From: a virus
Virus record (IMG/VR): IMGVR_UViG_3300029893_000046
Location: 1 to 32,057 of that record
Direction: 5' to 3' (one strand)
DNA length: 32,057 nucleotides
Shown here one piece after another: positions 43 to 32,057 of this stretch. The translations under genes were made by a program, and so were the position numbers. How positions within the stretch are numbered: the first letter of the stretch is position 1; each line of letters begins with the position of its first letter. The notes under the pieces are model-generated. The model made no database searches. It was not told where the DNA came from and saw only the letters and a list, made by a program, of their open reading frames with translations.

Positions 43-783
43 CTAAACTTGTTTCGAGCTGCTGAAATCATCAAACGCCTTTCGGAATTCCTGTATAAAA
101 ACTTTATCAAATATTGCGCTGGCCTCATCGTAGAACTTAAATCTGACCTTATAATACGGCTGCTTAATAAATGCCAGCAATTGTTTTATATTCTTATTGG
201 TCGCACTCCGGGTATAAACTCCCATAGGCAGGCGTGCATTTGAAGTATTAACGACAAAGAGCTGGGTGTACGCTTTCTTATTCCTCTTCTGCGATGCAGC
301 TGTCTGGCCAGCATCAAAGCCGGAGGACATCCCCGATCTGCCCCATACATCCAAGGCAGACATAATGCGTATCATTTCACTCTGCGGTATATTGCCGTAA
401 GAATTCAATCTCATCTTACTGCCGGGAGCTACATACATTCCTTTAGGCAGGATGCCCGCTGCCTGCATTTTCTTCTCACTCGCTTTCATCTCACGCGCCC
501 CGCCGAATATATGCGCTGCCAATATCCGGGCAGTCCCGGTTCCTTTAGGCGCCCATTCAGGCAATAATACTTTAACAGTCTTTCTGCTACTATCAGCCTT
601 AACATAATTGATGCCTTTCGTAACCCATTTTGTAGGTCTATGGAATACCGCCTCCATAGTTTTAGGAAGCTCTTCCTTTGCGATCTTATACGCGGTCCGG
701 TTTAGAGCAGTCATTGAAGCAGCATAAACAAGTTTATTGGCACTCTTAAACGCGTTTTCTATTTGTTTTTTAGTCGGTTCCAT
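43..783 (-). CDS. Phage virion-associated protein, gpZ/structural type (246 aa)
   Basis: This is a basic 246-residue protein. The central part has a pattern I associate with a recurrent phage structural family: a segment starting HRPTKWVTKGINYVKA (about residues 48-63), then GTGTARILAAHIFGG (81-95), an AGILPKGMYVAPGSK block (109-123), LNSYGNIPQSEMIRIMSAL, and late aromatic-rich strands. Members usually sit among head or tail genes, often near the portal. Here it is the last gene of the left arm, next to the putative cos end and separated from other structural genes by the replication module. In a circular or concatemeric map it lies just upstream of terS across cos. Family recognition is from memory and the exact role is not known. 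No signal peptide is visible. Confidence 0.6.
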   Translation of the reverse strand: MEPTKKQIENAFKSANKLVYAASMTALNRTAYKIAKEELPKTMEAVFHRPTKWVTKGINYVKADSSRKTVKVLLPEWAPKGTGTARILAAHIFGGAREMKASEKKMQAAGILPKGMYVAPGSKMRLNSYGNIPQSEMIRIMSALDVWGRSGMSSGFDAGQTAASQKRNKKAYTQLFVVNTSNARLPMGVYTRSATNKNIKQLLAFIKQPYYKVRFKFYDEASAIFDKVFIQEFRKAFDDFSSSKQV

Positions 784-1062
784 GTTTTTGTAGTAAGTGT
801 AGTAAGATGCAAATAAATTGTCTTACTCTGATAATTCCCTGTTTTTAATTTATTTTCTTATTATTTAATGTATCATAGTAAGACAGTAAGTGTAGTAAGT
901 AAGTTTATATACTTAATAAATTCCCTATAAGTCTTACGAGCGGGTTTTCTCTTACTCTCTTACTACAGAGCTATCTAAACTCTTTTATTTAAAAAACTTA
1001 TATTGTAGTAAGATTAAAAAAACTCTCTTACTCTCTCTTACTCTCTTACTACATAATTTTAA
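784..1062. repeat. Iteron-like repeat cluster, candidate replication origin
   Basis: This non-coding, A+T-rich gap is filled with copies of GTAGTAAG or close variants in both orientations. Direct copies: 790-797, 799-806, 892-899 and 1005-1012, plus TAGTAAG at 876-882 and AGTAAG at 885-890. Inverse copies: CTTACTAC at 959-966 and 1045-1052, and CTTACTCT at 822-829, 951-958, 1027-1034 and 1037-1044. The cluster directly follows the helicase gene. Known phage origins commonly combine iterons, A+T-rich DNA and an adjacent replication gene. Operator repeats for an early promoter are an alternative. Confidence 0.6.
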
Positions 1063-2382
1063 TTAAAACAATAAATTATTTCTTTCATCCAGTCCTTTAC
1101 GGATTTTCATTGCTTCATCCGTTTCAAGCTTTCTTAATTCCCATACTTTAATTGCGTAATCACGTCCCTCAATACGCCTATTGACCTGGCGGTAACCCAG
1201 CTTTGCCATCACCCTGCCGATCCTTACAGCCACGGTATCATTCGTATTCATCTTTCGGTACTGGTCCATGCCGGCCAGTTCGTGCATTATATCCGAGCTG
1301 GTCATATATCTTGCCAGACCTTTTTCTATTTCATCTTTTGTCGGTATAGTGTAATTAACAAGAATCAGCTCCTCTTCCGGAGACGGACGGCGGAAGCGCT
1401 CATTCACCTTTTCAATCTCTACTATTTCAGATCTGTCAAAGTAAGTTCTAAAACCGTTTTTATATTCATGCAGGGCCTCCGCGTATAAAAGCCCTACATC
1501 ATAATCATTATCCACGTCTATATTATGAATTGCGAACGGAAGCCAGCGCCTGTTTCCGGTAGTGTCAGTAAGAAACTCATCATAATTAATTGAACCTGCA
1601 AAGCTTGCCCGCCTTATCAGGTTAGTTCTGGCGTGCGCATAAGCCCTCCGGAGCTCAGCGTTACGCTTTGATATTGTGCTTTTTAATGTCCCCTGCTCAG
1701 TTCTCGTAAGCGTTTCCATTTCGTCCAGGACTATTAATATTTTTGTGCCTATCATTTCCAGATGATCTTTATCGTGCGGATCGAACGTTCCCACATACAA
1801 ATAATTGAACCTTAAATCCGGCGGAACCAGGGATTCCAGAAATCTAGTCTTGCCTCTTCCCTGCTTACCGCTTAAAACCAGTATAGTATCGTTAATCGTG
1901 TAATCGTCGATAAGAGAAGCCACCAGCATTATAAACCACTTTCTGAAAGTCTCTACAAGATGCTCTCTATATTCCTCATCGACCAGCTGGACCTGCTTTA
2001 AAAATTCAAAAAATCTTTTTTTGCCGTCCCACTTAGGAAGTGAGAATATATAATCCTGAATCGGGTTGAACTCAGCCGAAAGCTTGTCGCTCCCTACCAG
2101 CGATCTGAAATCGTTATCTGCAATGTCAATTCCCGCGTCCATTTTTATATCAGTGATCATGTTATGATAAGCCCTTTCATCAAAGAAAGTGAACTTACCT
2201 GCCGGGTCCGCCAGAACTTTGTATTCAGCTTTACTGGCAAATATGTTGTATCTGAATTCATACTGTTTATTTAAGTACTCCCTAACCGCAATAAGCTTAT
2301 TTGTTTTAGAACGCGGCTGCTCTTTGTGCGGTTTAATTTTTTTCTCAGGTGCATCCTTAAACTCTTTTTGCTGTTCGTTCAT
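1063..2382 (-). CDS. VirE/D5-like replicative helicase ATPase (439 aa)
   Basis: This is a P-loop ATPase of the virulence-associated E (PF05272) type, used by phages and islands as a replication helicase. The Walker A motif GKQGRGKT is at residues 172-179 and Walker B ILIVLDE at 215-221. The family signature TGNRRWLPF is at 275-283. About 80 N-terminal residues are charged and low-complexity in character. The C-terminal tail (about 330-439) may be a winged-helix DNA-binding part. The gene starts 2 bp after the primase stop, so the two are one replication unit. No clear Shine-Dalgarno is seen, which suggests coupling to primase translation. The repeat cluster 784-1062 lies directly downstream and is the likely site of action. 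Confidence 0.88.
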   Translation of the reverse strand: MNEQQKEFKDAPEKKIKPHKEQPRSKTNKLIAVREYLNKQYEFRYNIFASKAEYKVLADPAGKFTFFDERAYHNMITDIKMDAGIDIADNDFRSLVGSDKLSAEFNPIQDYIFSLPKWDGKKRFFEFLKQVQLVDEEYREHLVETFRKWFIMLVASLIDDYTINDTILVLSGKQGRGKTRFLESLVPPDLRFNYLYVGTFDPHDKDHLEMIGTKILIVLDEMETLTRTEQGTLKSTISKRNAELRRAYAHARTNLIRRASFAGSINYDEFLTDTTGNRRWLPFAIHNIDVDNDYDVGLLYAEALHEYKNGFRTYFDRSEIVEIEKVNERFRRPSPEEELILVNYTIPTKDEIEKGLARYMTSSDIMHELAGMDQYRKMNTNDTVAVRIGRVMAKLGYRQVNRRIEGRDYAIKVWELRKLETDEAMKIRKGLDERNNLLF

Positions 2383-2384
2383 AT

Positions 2385-3605
2385 TTAAGCGGCCAGAAGA
2401 TCATTAATGTCTTTAGATTTCAGTTTTTTAATTGTAATCTCTTTATTCAGGCCGATAAATAGATCCTTCAATTTATCCGCCATGGCATTTCCGGCCTCAT
2501 CGTTATCCCCGCAAATGGTAATATTAAAATCCAGAAGCTTTTTAAATCTATTCACTGAGGGAATATTATTCGCTCCGGGAATCGCGATCGTATTAAATCC
2601 CAAAGTCTCCCCGGCAATCGCGTCCAGCTCTCCCTCAACAATTAATAACTTTTCGAATTTCAGCATAGTATTCAATACATCCGTATTATAGAATCTTTTA
2701 GCGCGGTTGCAATCCAGCGCGTCGTTAGTGAGGCCGATATATTTGCTCATCTTCTCCGGAGGTTCATAATTGTTCTTAACGTCAAAATACCGTCCCCGCA
2801 TGTAAACTATCTCACCGTTATGTAGATAAGGAATAATCAAGCGATGATTATAAAATATTAAATTTCCTTTTTCGCTTAACAATCCAGCCCGGCGCAGATC
2901 TTCTGCAGGAAAGGCTTTTTTAAGGTGATTGTTTACTTTCCAGTAATCGATCACATAGAATAATTTAAAAGCCATCAGCTTTCTCACATCAAGTCTGCGT
3001 TTTTCTACAAGGTAATGATAAAAGGGCAGATCGCCGTCCAGACTGTTGCAGTAACTTCTGAACTCAGCAAAGATCTCTTTATTGCGTTTCAAACGGTGTT
3101 CTCTTACCGGCTTCAATATTATATCCATCTTTGCGTCAAACTGCTTTCTGAAATCATCCGTAACCTCAATCTCCATATCTCTCAGATAAATCTTATCAAA
3201 TTCCTGCTCGAATATTAATCTCTCGGCAGGAGTAAGCGCGTTAAGCAAAGCCATCGGAACCATTTCAAACAGTTTTTTCCTCTCTGCGATCGGCGCTGCA
3301 GCTTCTCTTTTATTCGTAAATAGATTATCAGCTATTCCATAAAGCTGAGCCAGCTCTTTTATAGCAGCCGATTTCTCTATCCTGTAGAAATCCTGGTAGA
3401 ACTGAATTACATCCCCTCCCTTGCCGGTAGCGAAACAGTAATAGGTATCCTCAACGCAATTTACCTGCAGGGATGGAGTCTTTTCATCTTTATAAATGCT
3501 CTTAATGAAAAAGCCCTTTGTACTTTTCCGTCCGCGTTCAATTGACAGTTTAGATATAAGATCATCTATTCTGCAGCGGTATTTTATTTCTGTTATTAGG
3601 TCCAT
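2385..3605 (-). CDS. DnaG-type primase with degenerate zinc site (406 aa)
   Basis: This is a phage primase that should make RNA primers at the fork with the adjacent helicase. The N-terminal 70 residues align by eye with a CHC2 zinc-ribbon domain (DEKTPSL at about 40-46, YYCFATGKGGDVIQF at 55-69), but only Cys57 of the usual four zinc ligands is left. A Toprim catalytic core follows: acidic VEGE at 323-326 and GDNDEAG at 366-372. No helicase domain is fused on. The ATG lies only 8 nt beyond the 3' end of the tRNA-like gene and has no evident ribosome binding site, so tRNA processing would leave a nearly leaderless message. The primase assignment is confident; the zinc loss should be checked by alignment. 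Confidence 0.85.
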   Translation of the reverse strand: MDLITEIKYRCRIDDLISKLSIERGRKSTKGFFIKSIYKDEKTPSLQVNCVEDTYYCFATGKGGDVIQFYQDFYRIEKSAAIKELAQLYGIADNLFTNKREAAAPIAERKKLFEMVPMALLNALTPAERLIFEQEFDKIYLRDMEIEVTDDFRKQFDAKMDIILKPVREHRLKRNKEIFAEFRSYCNSLDGDLPFYHYLVEKRRLDVRKLMAFKLFYVIDYWKVNNHLKKAFPAEDLRRAGLLSEKGNLIFYNHRLIIPYLHNGEIVYMRGRYFDVKNNYEPPEKMSKYIGLTNDALDCNRAKRFYNTDVLNTMLKFEKLLIVEGELDAIAGETLGFNTIAIPGANNIPSVNRFKKLLDFNITICGDNDEAGNAMADKLKDLFIGLNKEITIKKLKSKDINDLLAA

Positions 3606-3613
3606 AATCTTTG

Positions 3614-3687
3614 TAGCGGCAGCGGGATTCGAACCCGCCTCATTCCGGATATGAACCGGCGAAGGTGCCTCTCCTTCTCATGCCGCG
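3614..3687 (-). tRNA. tRNA-like gene, anticodon CAT (Met or Ile2)
   Basis: Read on the minus strand, a 74-nt cloverleaf fits the 87-nt gap between two genes. The T arm is GCGGG/TTCGAAT/CCCGC. The anticodon stem CCGG/CCGG carries loop TTCATAT (anticodon CAT at 3653-3651). The D stem is GAAGG/CCTTC with loop AGAGGCA. The acceptor is GCGGCA/TGCCGC. Oddities are a C-U mismatch at the first acceptor pair, one extra base between acceptor and D stem, a G-A mismatch at 27-43, and no encoded CCA. It could be functional or decayed. Confidence 0.68.
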
Positions 3688-3692
3688 ATGTT

Positions 3693-4145
3693 TTAATCAG
3701 TTAATAATTTAAATCCGCTTTCCTTAACAGACTGGAAATAAGTCTGGTCCTTATTGGGGTTCCATGCGTACGGCAAAAAAACTTCCAACGCCTCTACCTG
3801 CTGTATCTGTATCATGCTTACCTGTATCGCAACCCAGTCATGCAAAAGCTTCCACGCGGTTCTCTTACTCTGAGCCAGAACATTTTCCTGCACGGTTTTT
3901 TTAATGGCACTTTTAGCAGCATAATTTTTTATCATTACGTCGTAGCACTGTTTAATTTTACTCGGAAGTTTGAATAACACCGGTTTTCCCTCAATCATTA
4001 TCGAAAATATGAGAGCTTCCGGCTCTTTAGTTTCCGGATTATTGTATTTTATAATGCTCAAAGCCCCGGCGTCATTGAGCATTTTTTCAATCAGCATTAT
4101 AGATCTTTCTACCGGCACGGACGATGTGTAATTTTTTAAGTTCAT
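3693..4145 (-). CDS. Conserved phage protein of unknown function (150 aa)
   Basis: I recognise the overall pattern of a widespread small phage protein. It has an N-terminal TSSVPVERSIMLIEKMLNDAG helix pair, a beta segment KPVLFKLPS, and a C-terminal helix ending in a VQAE/QQVEALEVFLPYAW-like motif (here about residues 115-128). Such proteins lie in early or replication regions of many siphoviruses. No function is established to my knowledge. The start has a good ribosome binding site (GAGGGTGG), and a 30-bp dyad sits directly upstream at 4165-4194, so expression may be controlled there. The tRNA-like gene follows 5 bp after the stop. Confidence 0.7.
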   Translation of the reverse strand: MNLKNYTSSVPVERSIMLIEKMLNDAGALSIIKYNNPETKEPEALIFSIMIEGKPVLFKLPSKIKQCYDVMIKNYAAKSAIKKTVQENVLAQSKRTAWKLLHDWVAIQVSMIQIQQVEALEVFLPYAWNPNKDQTYFQSVKESGFKLLTD

Positions 4146-4164
4146 TTAAGCCACCCTCTTTTAT

Positions 4165-4194
4165 TGTCCAGTTTTTTAGTAAATAAACTGGACA
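4165..4194. promoter_or_regulatory. 30-bp dyad, copy 1 (TGTCCAGTTT / AAACTGGACA)
   Basis: Perfect 10-bp inverted arms are separated by a 10-nt A+T-rich spacer (TTTAGTAAAT). It abuts the stop codon of the 4195-4500 gene and lies about 20 bp upstream of the next start codon. No T-run follows on the minus strand, so it is not an ordinary intrinsic terminator. The same arms with the same spacing recur at 26664-26693. It could be an operator, an RNA hairpin controlling the next gene, or an RNase III site. Confidence 0.7.
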
Positions 4195-4500
4195 TTATTC
4201 ATTCACCGCTTTACCATCACACGTATAGCGGCCACCAAACAATAATTGCTTTCTCACAATTCTTTCTACTATCCGGTCAATAAAAGCCTCAGAATTAATA
4301 TACTTAGCGACCTGCTCCGCCAAACGCTTCTCGAAACTTATAGCAACGGCTTCTATAATTACCTCTCTAATTTCATTAGATTTAAAATCTTCGCCCAGGA
4401 ATTCATTTGTATAAGCAGTTACTTCGCGCGTTAGGTGCCCTCCCAGGAATATTAGTTGGAATGCTCGTACAATCGTTTTTTTAATTCTAGCTTCAAACAT
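4195..4500 (-). CDS. Hypothetical protein, early operon (101 aa)
   Basis: I do not recognise this protein. It is helical, with a hydrophobic stretch around residues 10-23 (VRAFQLIFLGGHL) and an alternating charged helix at about 45-85 (EIREVIIEAVAISFEKRLAEQ). Arg-, Glu- and Ile-rich repeats suggest an oligomeric helical bundle. It follows the 4510-4953 gene by 9 bp, and its stop directly touches the dyad at 4165-4194. It has no Cys pairs or evident HTH. Position in the operon suggests a role near replication, but that is only inference. Confidence 0.6.
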   Translation of the reverse strand: MFEARIKKTIVRAFQLIFLGGHLTREVTAYTNEFLGEDFKSNEIREVIIEAVAISFEKRLAEQVAKYINSEAFIDRIVERIVRKQLLFGGRYTCDGKAVNE

Positions 4501-5405: not shown

Positions 5406-5747
5406 TCATGCTAATTTTTCCAGATTGTATTCCGGATCTTCATTTTTCTTTCTCGCCATCCGTTTAAGTATCAGGTAACCTATCAGGTCCAGCTCCGCGT
5501 CCTCGTCATCGTCAAGTTTTAATTTTTTCTGCTGTTCAATTCTGGAAAGCTTATCGTCAATCCTTACATTCAGCTGCTCTATCGCGTCCGATCCGGAAAA
5601 GATTCTTTTCGGTTCAAGCGCGCTGTTTCCGTATTTGGCATTTTTTAATAACAGCATAGAACGGAGCTCTACCAATACGCGGTCCACCGCGGATAAAAAT
5701 TCAGTTCTGGTCTTTTCAAGCTCGGCAATCTTCTCTTTCCCCATCAT
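5406..5747 (-). CDS. Coiled-coil hypothetical protein (113 aa)
   Basis: I do not recognise a family with certainty. The protein is charged and helical: an N-terminal helix (KEKIAELEKTRTEF), a middle segment LLLKNAKYGNSALEPKRIFSG at about residues 32-52, then a coiled coil and an acidic DDDEDAELD patch around 78-86. The KYGNSALEP...F-type segment recalls small phage proteins described as nucleotide-modifying or DUF1599-like, in which similar words occur, but the catalytic context is not clear, so I assign no function. The start is ATGATG after GGGTGGA; either ATG may be used. Confidence 0.6.
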   Translation of the reverse strand: MMGKEKIAELEKTRTEFLSAVDRVLVELRSMLLLKNAKYGNSALEPKRIFSGSDAIEQLNVRIDDKLSRIEQQKKLKLDDDEDAELDLIGYLILKRMARKKNEDPEYNLEKLA

Positions 5748-5754
5748 TCCACCC

Positions 5755-5970
5755 TTATGCCGCGGCCGGTTTTCTGTGCCGCTGTACGAAAGGCCGGTGT
5801 ATGCTCATCACCCGCCCTCTATTATGAGCCGGACCTGTTCTGCGGTTGCTCGCAAGAACCTCGTGGGTGATAATATTAATAAGATCATATCCGTGGCGCT
5901 TCGCTTTTTCCTCAACGCCTTCATTTAACGGATGCACTCCAGCAAATACTTTTTTCCTTCCGCCCGGCAT
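5755..5970 (-). CDS. Basic hypothetical protein (71 aa)
   Basis: I do not recognise this protein. It is strongly basic, especially in its C-terminal third (HNRGRVMSIHRPFVQRHRKP, about residues 49-68), which could bind nucleic acid. The ATG follows the preceding small gene by one base, with GAGAGG upstream, as in other genes of this operon. It has no Cys and no membrane segment. The role is unknown. Confidence 0.5.
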   Translation of the reverse strand: MPGGRKKVFAGVHPLNEGVEEKAKRHGYDLINIITHEVLASNRRTGPAHNRGRVMSIHRPFVQRHRKPAAA

Positions 5971-5971
5971 T

Positions 5972-6148
5972 TTAACCTCTCAATAATTTTGTGATTGAAT
6001 TTTTTACTACTCTAAAGTAGATCTGAACTGCGCCCGCAATAATCTTTACAAGAGATGCGCCCCGCGTGAATTTCTTATACCGGATATTTTTATAATCATA
6101 TACGATCATAAACCTGTCCCGGTAGAGCTGATAAGTCGATACTGTCAT
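5972..6148 (-). CDS. Small basic hypothetical protein (58 aa)
   Basis: This small gene encodes a 58-residue basic protein beginning MTVSTYQLYRDRFMIVYDYK and ending in KLLRG. A strong ribosome binding site (GGGAGG) lies 5 nt before the ATG. Its ATG overlaps the stop of the 33-aa gene upstream (ATGA), and its stop is one base from the start of the 71-aa gene, so it fits the tight operon spacing. The middle (KIIAGAVQIYFRVV, about 35-48) may be an amphipathic helix. Function is unknown. Confidence 0.6.
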   Translation of the reverse strand: MTVSTYQLYRDRFMIVYDYKNIRYKKFTRGASLVKIIAGAVQIYFRVVKNSITKLLRG

Positions 6149-7484: not shown

Positions 7485-7656
7485 TTGCCCCTCCCGCATT
7501 ATCATTTTTCTTATATCTTTTAAAAATTATTCCCAGCGCGTATTTAATCCGGTATCTCAATTCCAGTCCGCTCAGCAGTCTTACGGCGTTGTTAAATTCT
7601 ATTCTGTAATTCCGCCTGGCGTATTTTCTCAACTTCTTTGCGATCGAATTATTCAT
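7477..7656 (-). CDS. Small basic protein (59 aa)
   Basis: This gene is coupled to its upstream neighbour by ATGA and overlaps the next by 8 bp. The product begins MNNSIAKKLRKYARRNYRIE and continues with LLSGLELRYRIKYALGIIFKRYKK, so it is basic, helical and probably amphipathic. Its placement inside a run of overlapping genes, filling an otherwise empty 148-bp gap exactly, supports it being real. Function is unknown. Confidence 0.55.
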   Translation of the reverse strand: MNNSIAKKLRKYARRNYRIEFNNAVRLLSGLELRYRIKYALGIIFKRYKKNDNAGGANV

Positions 7657-8204
7657 TTAACCAGCGTCTCCAGAGTTTTAATTTTATTTTTCAGCGCGCT
7701 TATTGCTTTCGCAACATCCTTCTTTTCATGCGGCATAAATTTTCCGTCGGCCAGCGCGCTCTTAATTTCTCCGCAGAGATTTCCGGCATTATCAGCAAGC
7801 TCCAGCGCGGAGTCTTTAATTTCTAGCTTTGAGTTATCCGGGATTCTTTTGTTCTCTACGTTTTCGAAACGTGAAATTTTTTCTTCGTGGTAAGCTATAA
7901 GAGGAGAATAATCATTAATGAAATAGCAAATATCGGCAAGGTCGTCTGCGCCCATCTTCATTCCGGTAACAGGATCCTGCTGGAACCAGTGCATTATCGT
8001 AGAGGCCTTTGGAGGTTTTTTGAATTCCAGTTTCCAATTCTTCTTAAATTCATTCTGCAGGAATATCCATACGTTAAATGTTTTTAATCCCTCCCGCCTC
8101 ACACGCGTTTGAAATTCTATGCACGCATTAAAAGCTACTTCTAAATAGGAGGATTGTTGCTGGTTTACTGAAAGATTGTTGATGATATGTAGCTGCCCTT
8201 TCAT
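7653..8204 (-). CDS. Putative phage regulatory protein, CII-like (183 aa)
   Basis: This helical protein has an N-terminal half that could hold a helix-turn-helix (KPPKASTIMHWFQ, then KMGADDLADICYFINDYSPLIAYHEE at about residues 63-105). The ADDLADICYFINDYSPLIAYH segment is similar in style to the phage CII/CP76 regulatory family, which activates early or lysogeny promoters. The C-terminal half is a charged coiled coil (about 125-180), probably for oligomerisation. It is the second gene of the early operon, as expected of a regulator. The family assignment is tentative. Confidence 0.45.
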   Translation of the reverse strand: MKGQLHIINNLSVNQQQSSYLEVAFNACIEFQTRVRREGLKTFNVWIFLQNEFKKNWKLEFKKPPKASTIMHWFQQDPVTGMKMGADDLADICYFINDYSPLIAYHEEKISRFENVENKRIPDNSKLEIKDSALELADNAGNLCGEIKSALADGKFMPHEKKDVAKAISALKNKIKTLETLVK

Positions 8205-8561: not shown

Positions 8562-8915
8562 ATGCAATTACCACATATTGTCAAGAAAAAAAATAATGTA
8601 ATTACCACATTGAACCAAATTGAATTAATATTAGGTAGTGATTCGCCTATAAAAGTCATGCTAAAAGCCGATTTTTTGCATGATTTTGAGATAAAATTGC
8701 CTGAATACGGCAATAATGATTATTTGAATATTTCAAGCTTTTCTGAAAAGAAAGTTCATTACAAAGTAGATTTAGTAGCGTGTACTTGTTCGTGTCCTGA
8801 TTTTTCAAAAAACAGAATTATGTTTAGGAAAGGAAGTATTAAAAGGTTATGCAAACATCAAGAAAGCCCTACTCTGCCAATTCCATCGCTAACTTTACAG
8901 GATAGCACAGTTTAG
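8562..8915 (+). CDS. SWIM zinc-finger protein (117 aa), only plus-strand gene
   Basis: Residues 71-100 carry a SWIM-type zinc motif: VACTCSCPDF then LCKH, i.e. CxC, a spacer, CxH. SWIM domains bind DNA or proteins and often occur in larger helicases and transposases or as small stand-alone proteins. The chain ends about 20 residues after the motif in a Pro/Ser-rich tail, and its base composition is more A+T-rich than the surrounding operons. It reads opposite to the rest of the genome and in the same direction as the tRNA-Arg fragment 80 bp downstream, so both may be captured host DNA. The tail might be a product of fusion or truncation. Confidence 0.6.
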   Translation: MQLPHIVKKKNNVITTLNQIELILGSDSPIKVMLKADFLHDFEIKLPEYGNNDYLNISSFSEKKVHYKVDLVACTCSCPDFSKNRIMFRKGSIKRLCKHQESPTLPIPSLTLQDSTV

Positions 8916-12652: not shown

Positions 12653-14029
12653 TTAGTTATCTGTATAAGCTATACAAATCCATTCGCCCGCACCTGCATA
12701 ATACCTGAATGTAGCCGTATCATATTGACCCAATACTAAAGTCGTTCCAGGCATCCTGAAATATCCCCCGCTTTCTCTTATCGTTACTGTATTTGAACTG
12801 TGAATATTCATTATCGTTACTGTCTGTCCGTCTGTGGGTGAACCTGAAACAGCATCTAAGTAAGTGCTTCCGCCTGTCGGGTTTACTGTTACTGATGCCT
12901 TGCCGTCAAGAGCAATCTGATAAAAACCGTCTATTGTCGCCGATTCCCACGGCACTTTAATATCGTCTGTGAATGAAGCATCATTACTAAACGAATTAGT
13001 GCCAGTCCAAGTATTATTATCGCTTAAAAAAGCAAATTCTTTCTCGCCTGTTCCATCCATTCCGTAATATTTATTCGCATAGTATCTCATTGTCCCTGCA
13101 TAACTTAAAGAACCAGATTTAGCAGGAACGAAAAATTGTCCTGTCGTCCCGAAGTTTAACCAATTATTATATGTGTTTGTGCCTGTGTAAGTATTGTTAC
13201 CGGATAAAGATACTGCATCTGTGATGCCGTAACCCGCAAGGGTTGTTGGGGTTGTGCTGATTTTACTCCAAGCAAGTCCGGTTATCCAGGCGGGATTTGC
13301 GTATGAACCCGATGTATAAACTCCATTAGTGACTGTTGATGCGTTCCCCGCTAAATTTGCAACTGTTAATGTTTGTGTTGAAGGTGTATAATAGAGCGCA
13401 TTCACATTGTCGGCTTTTAACGATACATTTTGACTACCCGTCCCTGTCGCAAAAATTAAATAATGGGCAGAAGCACTCATCGATTCGCTACTGACAGTTG
13501 AATATAAAGCACCGCCCCCAGCATTGCCAGTAATACTTCCAGCAATAGTCGAAGAGAAGGTTTTAGTTCCAGCGATAGTTTGATTGCCTGTTGATTTAAT
13601 AAACTCAAATTCCCCCGAACCATCTAAACCGTAATATTTGTTGTTGTAATATCTCATCGTCCCCGCATAAGATAGCGAACCAGACTTAACAGGAACAAAA
13701 AACTGTCCTGATGTTCCGAAGTTTAACCAATTAGTGAATGTAACTGTTGAATCAAATCTAACATTTATCGGGTTCTTTGTATAAACGAAATAAGTGCTGT
13801 CAACTCCGCCGCCTATTTTGTTATATTTCAGATAGTACAACGTGCTGGCATTGCTCCAACGTATTTCACCTGCATTCTTGCCTATCTTCCAGTAAGGTCT
13901 TAAAGTTCCATCGTAATTTATCCACCTGTCATTCTGCGCGGAAGTTTCATTAAACATCACGCATATAAATAGCAGAATTATCGCCCACTTACACCAACAA
14001 AACACCTTATTAAAATTCTTATACTTCAT
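12653..14029 (-). CDS. Exported tail-fibre-like protein with internal repeats (458 aa)
   Basis: A hydrophobic segment at residues 15-26 (WAIILLFICVMF) followed by NETSAQN resembles a signal peptide with a basic, Lys-rich start. The rest is a fibre-like protein. A 44-residue unit (NWLNFGT.GQFFVP.KSGS..., YAGTMRYY.NKYYG.DG.GE) occurs twice, at about residues 100-143 and 289-332. The sequence between has TIAGTKTFSST and NTYTGTNTYNNW motifs typical of trimeric shaft repeats. The C-terminal 80 residues (GGSTYLDAVSGSPTDGQ, VTIRESGGYFRMPGTT, ATFRYYAGAGEWICIAY) resemble a tip domain. It probably binds the receptor; export is inferred from sequence only. Confidence 0.75.
   Translation of the reverse strand: MKYKNFNKVFCWCKWAIILLFICVMFNETSAQNDRWINYDGTLRPYWKIGKNAGEIRWSNASTLYYLKYNKIGGGVDSTYFVYTKNPINVRFDSTVTFTNWLNFGTSGQFFVPVKSGSLSYAGTMRYYNNKYYGLDGSGEFEFIKSTGNQTIAGTKTFSSTIAGSITGNAGGGALYSTVSSESMSASAHYLIFATGTGSQNVSLKADNVNALYYTPSTQTLTVANLAGNASTVTNGVYTSGSYANPAWITGLAWSKISTTPTTLAGYGITDAVSLSGNNTYTGTNTYNNWLNFGTTGQFFVPAKSGSLSYAGTMRYYANKYYGMDGTGEKEFAFLSDNNTWTGTNSFSNDASFTDDIKVPWESATIDGFYQIALDGKASVTVNPTGGSTYLDAVSGSPTDGQTVTIMNIHSSNTVTIRESGGYFRMPGTTLVLGQYDTATFRYYAGAGEWICIAYTDN
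13034..13165 (-). repeat. Fibre repeat unit, copy 2
   Basis: This encodes residues 289-332 of the fibre, the second copy of the NWLNFGT...YAGTMRYY unit. Both DNA and protein are closely similar to copy 1 at 13601-13732, so it looks like a fairly recent tandem-domain duplication that could also recombine. Confidence 0.8.
13601..13732 (-). repeat. Fibre repeat unit, copy 1
   Basis: This encodes residues 100-143 of the fibre, the first copy of the NWLNFGT...YAGTMRYY unit. The 435-bp stretch between the copies holds a TIAGTKTF-type shaft segment. Confidence 0.8.
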
Positions 14030-28009: not shown

Positions 28010-28786
28010 TCACGGCTTAAAAACCACGCCGTTCATCGGGCACGCCTCCGGCGTACTGATAAACGGTAACTCCCTTAACTGTAATTCTATCGGGAATAAA
28101 TTTATGTCCTCAATTACTTTGTTATCTTTATTACGAATCTGTTTTACCCAAATAGGGATATTAAAATTCGTTGCCTCTATTATTATTTCTCTTGCCCAAG
28201 AATTATTAAACTCTCTCCGCTTGTTTCCACTTTCACACCCAATTACTATCCAGTCTACTTTATAAATATTAACTGGCTCAATTAACGGCTCTAAACTTAA
28301 CCATTTAACTTTCGCATCTGTGTTCTTCAAGTAATCTATCCCAGCATCTAAATCTTTTTGTGTTGAGGCAGAATAACCGATCCAAAGATTCGGAAGGTTA
28401 TCTACAGATTGATTGCCAAAGAAATAATCTAATAGATGATTGTGAATACTCATGGCTCTTTTTATTCTTTTTGTCAAAACTAAAAAGGTGTGCTGATTAT
28501 AATTATCAATAAAAACCTGATAAATTTTTGTTATTGTCTCTACTGGAATACTTTCATGGAATAAATCACTCATAGAATTGACAAACACTCGCATTGATTT
28601 TTTGCTTCTGAATTTTGTGTCGCTTAATCTTTCTTCATGAAATTGAATATCGGTAAATTTCCTGTCTCCCCAAAATCTATTTGCCATACTTTCGGCATAG
28701 CAATACTTACACCCCTGCGCTATTTTAGAACATCCGGTTATTGGATTCCATGTATAATCACACCAGTTAATTTTAGTTTTGTTCAT
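28010..28786 (-). CDS. Gp37/Gp68 family (DUF5131) protein with Cys cluster (258 aa)
   Basis: Near the N terminus, GCSKIAQGCKYCYAE holds Cys19, Cys26 and Cys29 (C-x6-C-x2-C), as in the PF07505 family of phage and mycobacteriophage proteins. This family has remote radical-SAM-like features and an unknown role. NSMSDLFHE, FLVLTKRI, WIGYSASTQ and KWLSLEPL are family-type segments. No classic CxxxCxxC radical-SAM motif is present, so the enzyme chemistry is unproven. The gene is in the A+T-rich accessory block after terL. Confidence 0.82.
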   Translation of the reverse strand: MNKTKINWCDYTWNPITGCSKIAQGCKYCYAESMANRFWGDRKFTDIQFHEERLSDTKFRSKKSMRVFVNSMSDLFHESIPVETITKIYQVFIDNYNQHTFLVLTKRIKRAMSIHNHLLDYFFGNQSVDNLPNLWIGYSASTQKDLDAGIDYLKNTDAKVKWLSLEPLIEPVNIYKVDWIVIGCESGNKRREFNNSWAREIIIEATNFNIPIWVKQIRNKDNKVIEDINLFPIELQLRELPFISTPEACPMNGVVFKP

Positions 28787-32043: not shown

Positions 32044-32057
32044 GGTGCGAATGTAAC
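32044..32057 (+). repeat. Right copy of 14-bp terminal direct repeat (candidate cos end)
   Basis: GGTGCGAATGTAAC is identical to bases 1-14. With the left copy it either marks filled 5' cohesive ends of a linear virion genome or an assembly overlap of a circular molecule. The adjacent terminase genes favour a cos reading. Confidence 0.6.

Follow-up and report, generated by a model that had tools for sequence, protein, structure and literature searches.

A repeat array of twelve sites beside a VapE-family helicase gene: a probable SaPI/PICI-type replication origin in a tailed phage

The stretch of DNA analysed here, hereafter the window, covers an IMG/VR virus record in full (32,057 bases). 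It is a complete tailed phage: virion genes encode a portal, a capsid, a lysozyme, a TerL-like protein and a minor tail protein, and nearly all genes lie on the minus strand. The first and last 14 bases of the record are identical (1-14 and 32044-32057, GGTGCGAATGTAAC), which suggests that the record is circular or circularly permuted; joining its ends places the minor tail gene beside TerS and TerL, in an order similar to that of the related phage L004. Several other features of the record can be mentioned. A tRNA-Met (CAT) gene (3613-3687, minus strand) separates the primase gene from a gene of unknown function. The capsid ORF (PF05065, 22131-24014) and the portal ORF (PF05136, 23878-25515) share 137 bases, and the true start of the former may lie further downstream, or its N-terminal part may be a protease. 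A DUF5131 protein of unknown function is encoded at 28010-28786 (E=4e-62). Among the few likely plus-strand genes is that at 8562-8915, whose 117-aa product weakly matches a SWIM zinc finger; it sits in a low-GC, near-zero-skew region, a possible control region, beside a CII-like regulator (7653-8204).

The feature under study is a repeat array of 279 bp that spans exactly the interval from the stop of the VapE-family helicase gene (1063-2382, minus strand) to the next gene (43-783, minus strand). It is thus intergenic, directly 3' of the helicase gene, and carries sites in both orientations (Table 1). The segment is 74% A+T, against 58% in the window. The hexamer AGTAAG occurs 13 times within 784-1062 (seven on the plus and six on the minus strand) and 22 times in the remaining ~31.8 kb of the record, while 2,000 dinucleotide-preserving shuffles of the 279 bp gave a mean of 0.77 and a maximum of 5. 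The word GTAGTAAG is present six times, against a shuffle mean of 0.05 and a maximum of 2. No other 280-bp stretch of the record holds a comparable non-homopolymer word, so that the cluster is single record-wide. Read as 8-bp sites, the array has 12, and weak additional copies start at 896 and 933. These counts bear out the first-pass annotation, which had described about a dozen copies of an 8-base word in some 280 bp of A+T-rich DNA beside the helicase; two details that it had singled out, a tight pair at 790-806 and an inverse run at 1027-1052, also hold. Its separate variant word, CTTACTCT, is a degenerate copy (AGAGTAAG) read on the opposite strand.

Table 1 Features of the array and its neighbouring genes (F, helicase strand; R, opposite strand)
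Feature	Position	Strand	Remarks
Minor tail protein	43..783	-	phrog_1924, E=9.5e-50; first gene past the array; TerS and TerL next if record circular
Whole array, predicted replication origin	784..1062	.	between helicase stop and minor tail gene start
Iteron 12 (R), GTAGTAAG	790..797	+	outer pair
Iteron 11 (R), GTAGTAAG	799..806	+	outer pair
Iteron 10 (F), AGAGTAAG	822..829	-	single opposed site, distal half
Iteron 9 (R), ATAGTAAG	875..882	+	
Iteron 8 (R), ACAGTAAG	883..890	+	
Iteron 7 (R), GTAGTAAG	892..899	+	inner triplet, distal half
AT-rich quasi-dyad centre, predicted opening site	900..950	.	weak copy at 933 inside; another at 896 just outside
Iteron 6 (F), AGAGTAAG	951..958	-	inner pair
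Iteron 5 (F), GTAGTAAG	959..966	-	inner pair
Iteron 4 (R), GTAGTAAG	1005..1012	+	single opposed site, helicase-proximal half
Iteron 3 (F), AGAGTAAG	1027..1034	-	
Iteron 2 (F), AGAGTAAG	1037..1044	-	
Iteron 1 (F), GTAGTAAG	1045..1052	-	outer triplet, helicase-proximal half
VapE-family AAA+ helicase, predicted origin-binding initiator	1063..2382	-	PF05272, E=5e-37
DnaG-type primase (CHC2 zinc ribbon + Toprim)	2385..3605	-	PF01807, PF13155; partner replication gene

Counted from the helicase stop, the window sites fall at F11 F19 F29 R51 F97 F105 | R164 R173 R181 F234 R257 R266, so that the array reads FFF-R-FF | RRR-F-RR, a quasi-dyad of 6 + 6 sites with near mirror symmetry. Going outward from the centre, one half has a pair of inward sites and, after a ~46-bp gap, a single opposed site, from which a step of 22 bp leads to a triplet of inward sites; the other half begins with a triplet of inward sites, followed across a ~53-bp gap by a single opposed site and, a step of 23 bp further, by a pair of inward sites. 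Arithmetic on the site positions places the centres of paired sites at 917-925 of the window, inside the AT-rich 900-950. The first-pass annotation had proposed two binding arrays flanking an unwinding region at 905-950 and 975-1000; the former is indeed the quasi-dyad centre between the two sets of six sites, but the latter is the ~45-bp spacer inside one half.

The same layout is found in two relatives, L004 and L061, whose helicases are respectively 50% and 37% identical to that of the window. Each has 12 GTAGTNAG sites at the same place after the helicase: F3 F10 F20 R43 F87 F96 | R154 R163 R170 F213 R235 R245 in L004, where the sites read GTAGT(C/T)AG, and F67 F74 F85 R108 F153 F162 | R229 R238 R245 F300 R331 R342 in L061. 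Order and orientation are identical for 12/12 sites across the three phages, and the steps match to within 0-2 bp apart from a few, which are off by 8-12 bp, or roughly one turn of the helix. Site identity among the three is 76-89%, while the spacers are near shuffle level (0.58 vs 0.54, 0.55 vs 0.56 and 0.49 vs 0.51 for real and shuffled spacers). Two further loci, L110 and L064, retain the helicase-proximal half and the centre; partly similar layouts are built from other words in L232 (GTAGTGATA), L227 (TGTGGTAA) and L019 (CCGTGACAC), and L012, L235, L241 and L242 share a second arrangement made from a similar half-module. Over 31 loci, same-orientation neighbours lie 7-11 bp apart in 83 of 114 cases (20.8+-3.7 in random placements), F>R steps measure 20-26 bp in 22 of 59 (8.2+-2.5) and R>F steps 40-48 bp in 26 of 58 (4.2+-1.9); these intervals were picked after viewing the window, L004 and L061, all three of which are included in the 31, and the automatic motif calls are approximate. 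The count of 12 sites was seen in these three phages, and most other well-resolved arrays show fewer recognised sites. Comparison among relatives thus supports two putative binding arrays around a predicted opening region next to a VapE helicase.

The linkage between such arrays and VapE helicases was examined from the DNA side by searching 2.9 million viral contigs for exact matches to the tandem word TGTAGTNAGTGTAGTNAG, a search in which no protein information was used. It returned 99 loci, 33 of which encode a VapE relative, and in 32 of these 33 the word lies 3' of the helicase gene, between -60 and +500 bp from its stop; many of the 33 are near-copies from one phage group, which leaves about 10 distinct array maps. 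The reversed pattern, run as a control, gave 79 loci and a VapE gene in none of them. Ranked by word clustering within each locus, the 350 bp following the helicase come first or nearly first in 15 of 34 phage loci, which include cultured Staphylococcus, Streptococcus, Pasteurella, Lactobacillus and Flavobacterium phages as well as the streptococcal satellite phage Javan748. In prophage-like loci of Bacteroidota chromosomes, the region 3' of the helicase ranks in the top 5% (rank <=0.05) in 13 of 30. Comparable arrays beside VapE helicases, which the first-pass annotation had proposed to look for in related phages, are thus clearly present in phage, satellite and chromosomal loci, where they include arrays made of other words. 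In about half of the VapE loci examined, among them the Cellulophaga phi38:2 clade and several Bacteroides phages, the gene is not followed directly by a clear array; we count this against the reading of the array as an origin, and the arrangement is therefore common, not universal. A stricter two-half pattern found no loci in the viral contigs beyond two already known, and a genome-wide protein scan gave three prophage loci only; a clear GTAGTAAG array is present in one of them, L221 (Saprospiraceae). The fecal contigs H6, H7 and H16, which were among the first phage matches, are chromosomal in appearance and were set aside.

The gene beyond the array varies among relatives (minor tail, primase, VRR-NUC or DEAD-type helicase), which indicates that the array goes with the helicase. 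This bears on whether the sites might instead form an operator cluster, bound by a phage regulator that controls the late operon of minor tail, terminase and head genes just beyond. The array does lie upstream of late genes in the window and in L004, and operators can likewise be multiple and in both orientations. However, similar arrays follow VapE helicases ahead of primase, nuclease and helicase genes as well, and twelve sites with helical-turn-sized step changes are more than usual operators have; the lack of a sigma-70-like promoter in 600-1300 is a weaker point, as Bacteroidota promoters differ. We rejected the late-operator reading, with its varying downstream genes and constant helicase, as improbable, since the array follows the helicase regardless of the next gene. 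A packaging (pac/cos) or partition site is less likely still. TerS and TerL would be about 0.9 kb away, past the minor tail gene, if the record is circular, but among relatives (L012, L022 and L050 groups) the arrays show no tie to terminase genes, and a satellite phage (L039) and Bacteroidota chromosomes have the same organisation.

In the AlphaFold model of the helicase (mean pLDDT 85), residues 356-418 or thereabouts form a C-terminal winged helix. Its best Foldseek match is 7PDS, PriRep1 with dsDNA (E=1e-17, TM 0.69), and phmmer relates the two proteins with E=3e-10. The predicted fold of the helicase thus resembles that of PriRep1, which we take to be a SaPI protein, in line with PMC10061031, where staphylococcal self-loading helicases are attributed to SaPIs. 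Across loci, similarity of the word tracks similarity of the helicase (r=0.34); covariation of the word with the C-terminal domain beyond overall helicase similarity was not significant (partial Mantel p=0.07), and the specificity of that domain was not separable from overall similarity, which we count against the main reading. That result, and the predicted status of binding by the helicase, leave some room for an origin or maintenance site of a different phage or host protein, onto which the helicase would be loaded secondarily. We regard this as quite improbable, slightly more so than an operator: the array travels with the helicase gene through unrelated neighbourhoods, and the closest solved relative of the helicase is a SaPI-type replication protein solved with dsDNA.

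Known origins provide a close parallel. The C-terminal domain of SaPI Rep recognises iterons directly 3' of rep (PMC7581432), and PICI origins, in which an AT-rich region always lies between two sets of iterons just 3' of rep, drive plasmid replication together with rep (PMC6092414). As in these origins, the window array comes straight after the gene of a self-loading AAA+ helicase, its multiple short iterons form two sets with an AT-rich region between them (6 + 6 around 900-950), and the predicted initiator is a SaPI-Rep-like helicase, a relative of PriRep1 (7PDS). The mixed orientation, initially taken as a departure from simple iterons, is not unusual for this kind of origin, as the two iteron sets of PICIs illustrate (PMC6092414). 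Unlike SaPI/PICI origins, the array has a near mirror-symmetric layout of 12 sites, and the element that carries it is a complete tailed phage, which encodes portal, capsid, terminase and tail proteins of its own; with these virion genes the element is not a PICI, despite its PICI-type predicted origin. The putative origin of SCCmec Cch2 is similar in that the C-terminal domain of an initiator helicase binds short iterons downstream of the operon (PMC7581432), but it has three direct iterons only and a helicase of another family (D5_N/Primase_Cterm). The window differs further from two classical phage systems. In lambda, the phage-encoded initiator O, which is not a helicase, binds direct repeats beside an AT-rich region, inside gene O, whereas the window sites are intergenic and in both orientations. 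P4 is likewise a phage-related element, and its alpha protein is a helicase that initiates at a cognate ori, but this protein is a fused primase-helicase and ori and crr are two separate sites; here a single array is found record-wide and the primase gene is separate. The P4 alpha protein with its ori is also named in PMC6092414. In the papers searched, no such arrangement of VapE gene and origin was described for phages.

Taken with its position and its relatives, the array is very probably a phage replication origin of SaPI/PICI type, at which the adjacent VapE-family helicase would bind, open the DNA and load. Among the points against an origin is the absence of the GC-skew switch that the first-pass annotation anticipated at 784-1062, skew being negative throughout the window. 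In the proposed mechanism, the helicase encoded right upstream would bind the AGTAAG-core iterons via its C-terminal winged helix, and the six sites on either side of the AT-rich centre (~900-950) would position two helicase rings face to face. After melting the centre, the rings would load and travel away from each other, and synthesis would be primed by the DnaG-type primase encoded next to the helicase. By analogy with PICI origins, six sites per half could correspond to two hexamers, with one winged helix per site. More tentatively, and with somewhat less than even confidence, we propose that the layout (three, one opposed, two | three, one opposed, two; steps of about 8-10, 22 and 45 bp) is an assembly code, with a winged helix per site and a hexamer per half, by which the DNA would dictate face-to-face loading of two helicases. 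Such a code would define a widespread and recognisable class of phage origin.

Few uncultured phages have a known replication origin. If the proposed SaPI/PICI-type reading is right, the sequence could reveal the origins of many phages with VapE-family helicases, and the design of SaPI/PICI origins would be common to complete phages and not peculiar to satellites, which bears on the source of the satellites' replicons. The conserved near-symmetric spacing moreover offers a testable geometry for the assembly of self-loading hexameric helicases on double-stranded DNA.

Some arrays were also observed in other settings. In Cellulophaga phage phi38:2 (L005), whose helicase has no 3' array, 16 AGCTAA copies in one orientation are densely packed at 5681-6000, in or near a coding region. 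Arrays of 8-9 GTAGTNAG copies with a layout common to all three occur in L140 (~13320-13540), L088 (~2688-2907) and L104 (~4095-4314), all from one phage group, in which no VapE helicase was detected; they may represent another origin family sharing the word. A helicase-like ORF of L104 (1-1722) lies about 2.4 kb from its array. Finally, L081 has five GTAGTNAG sites (473-665) directly 3' of a 486-aa ORF (672-2132) that has the appearance of a D5-type primase-helicase, which suggests that the arrangement reaches beyond VapE.
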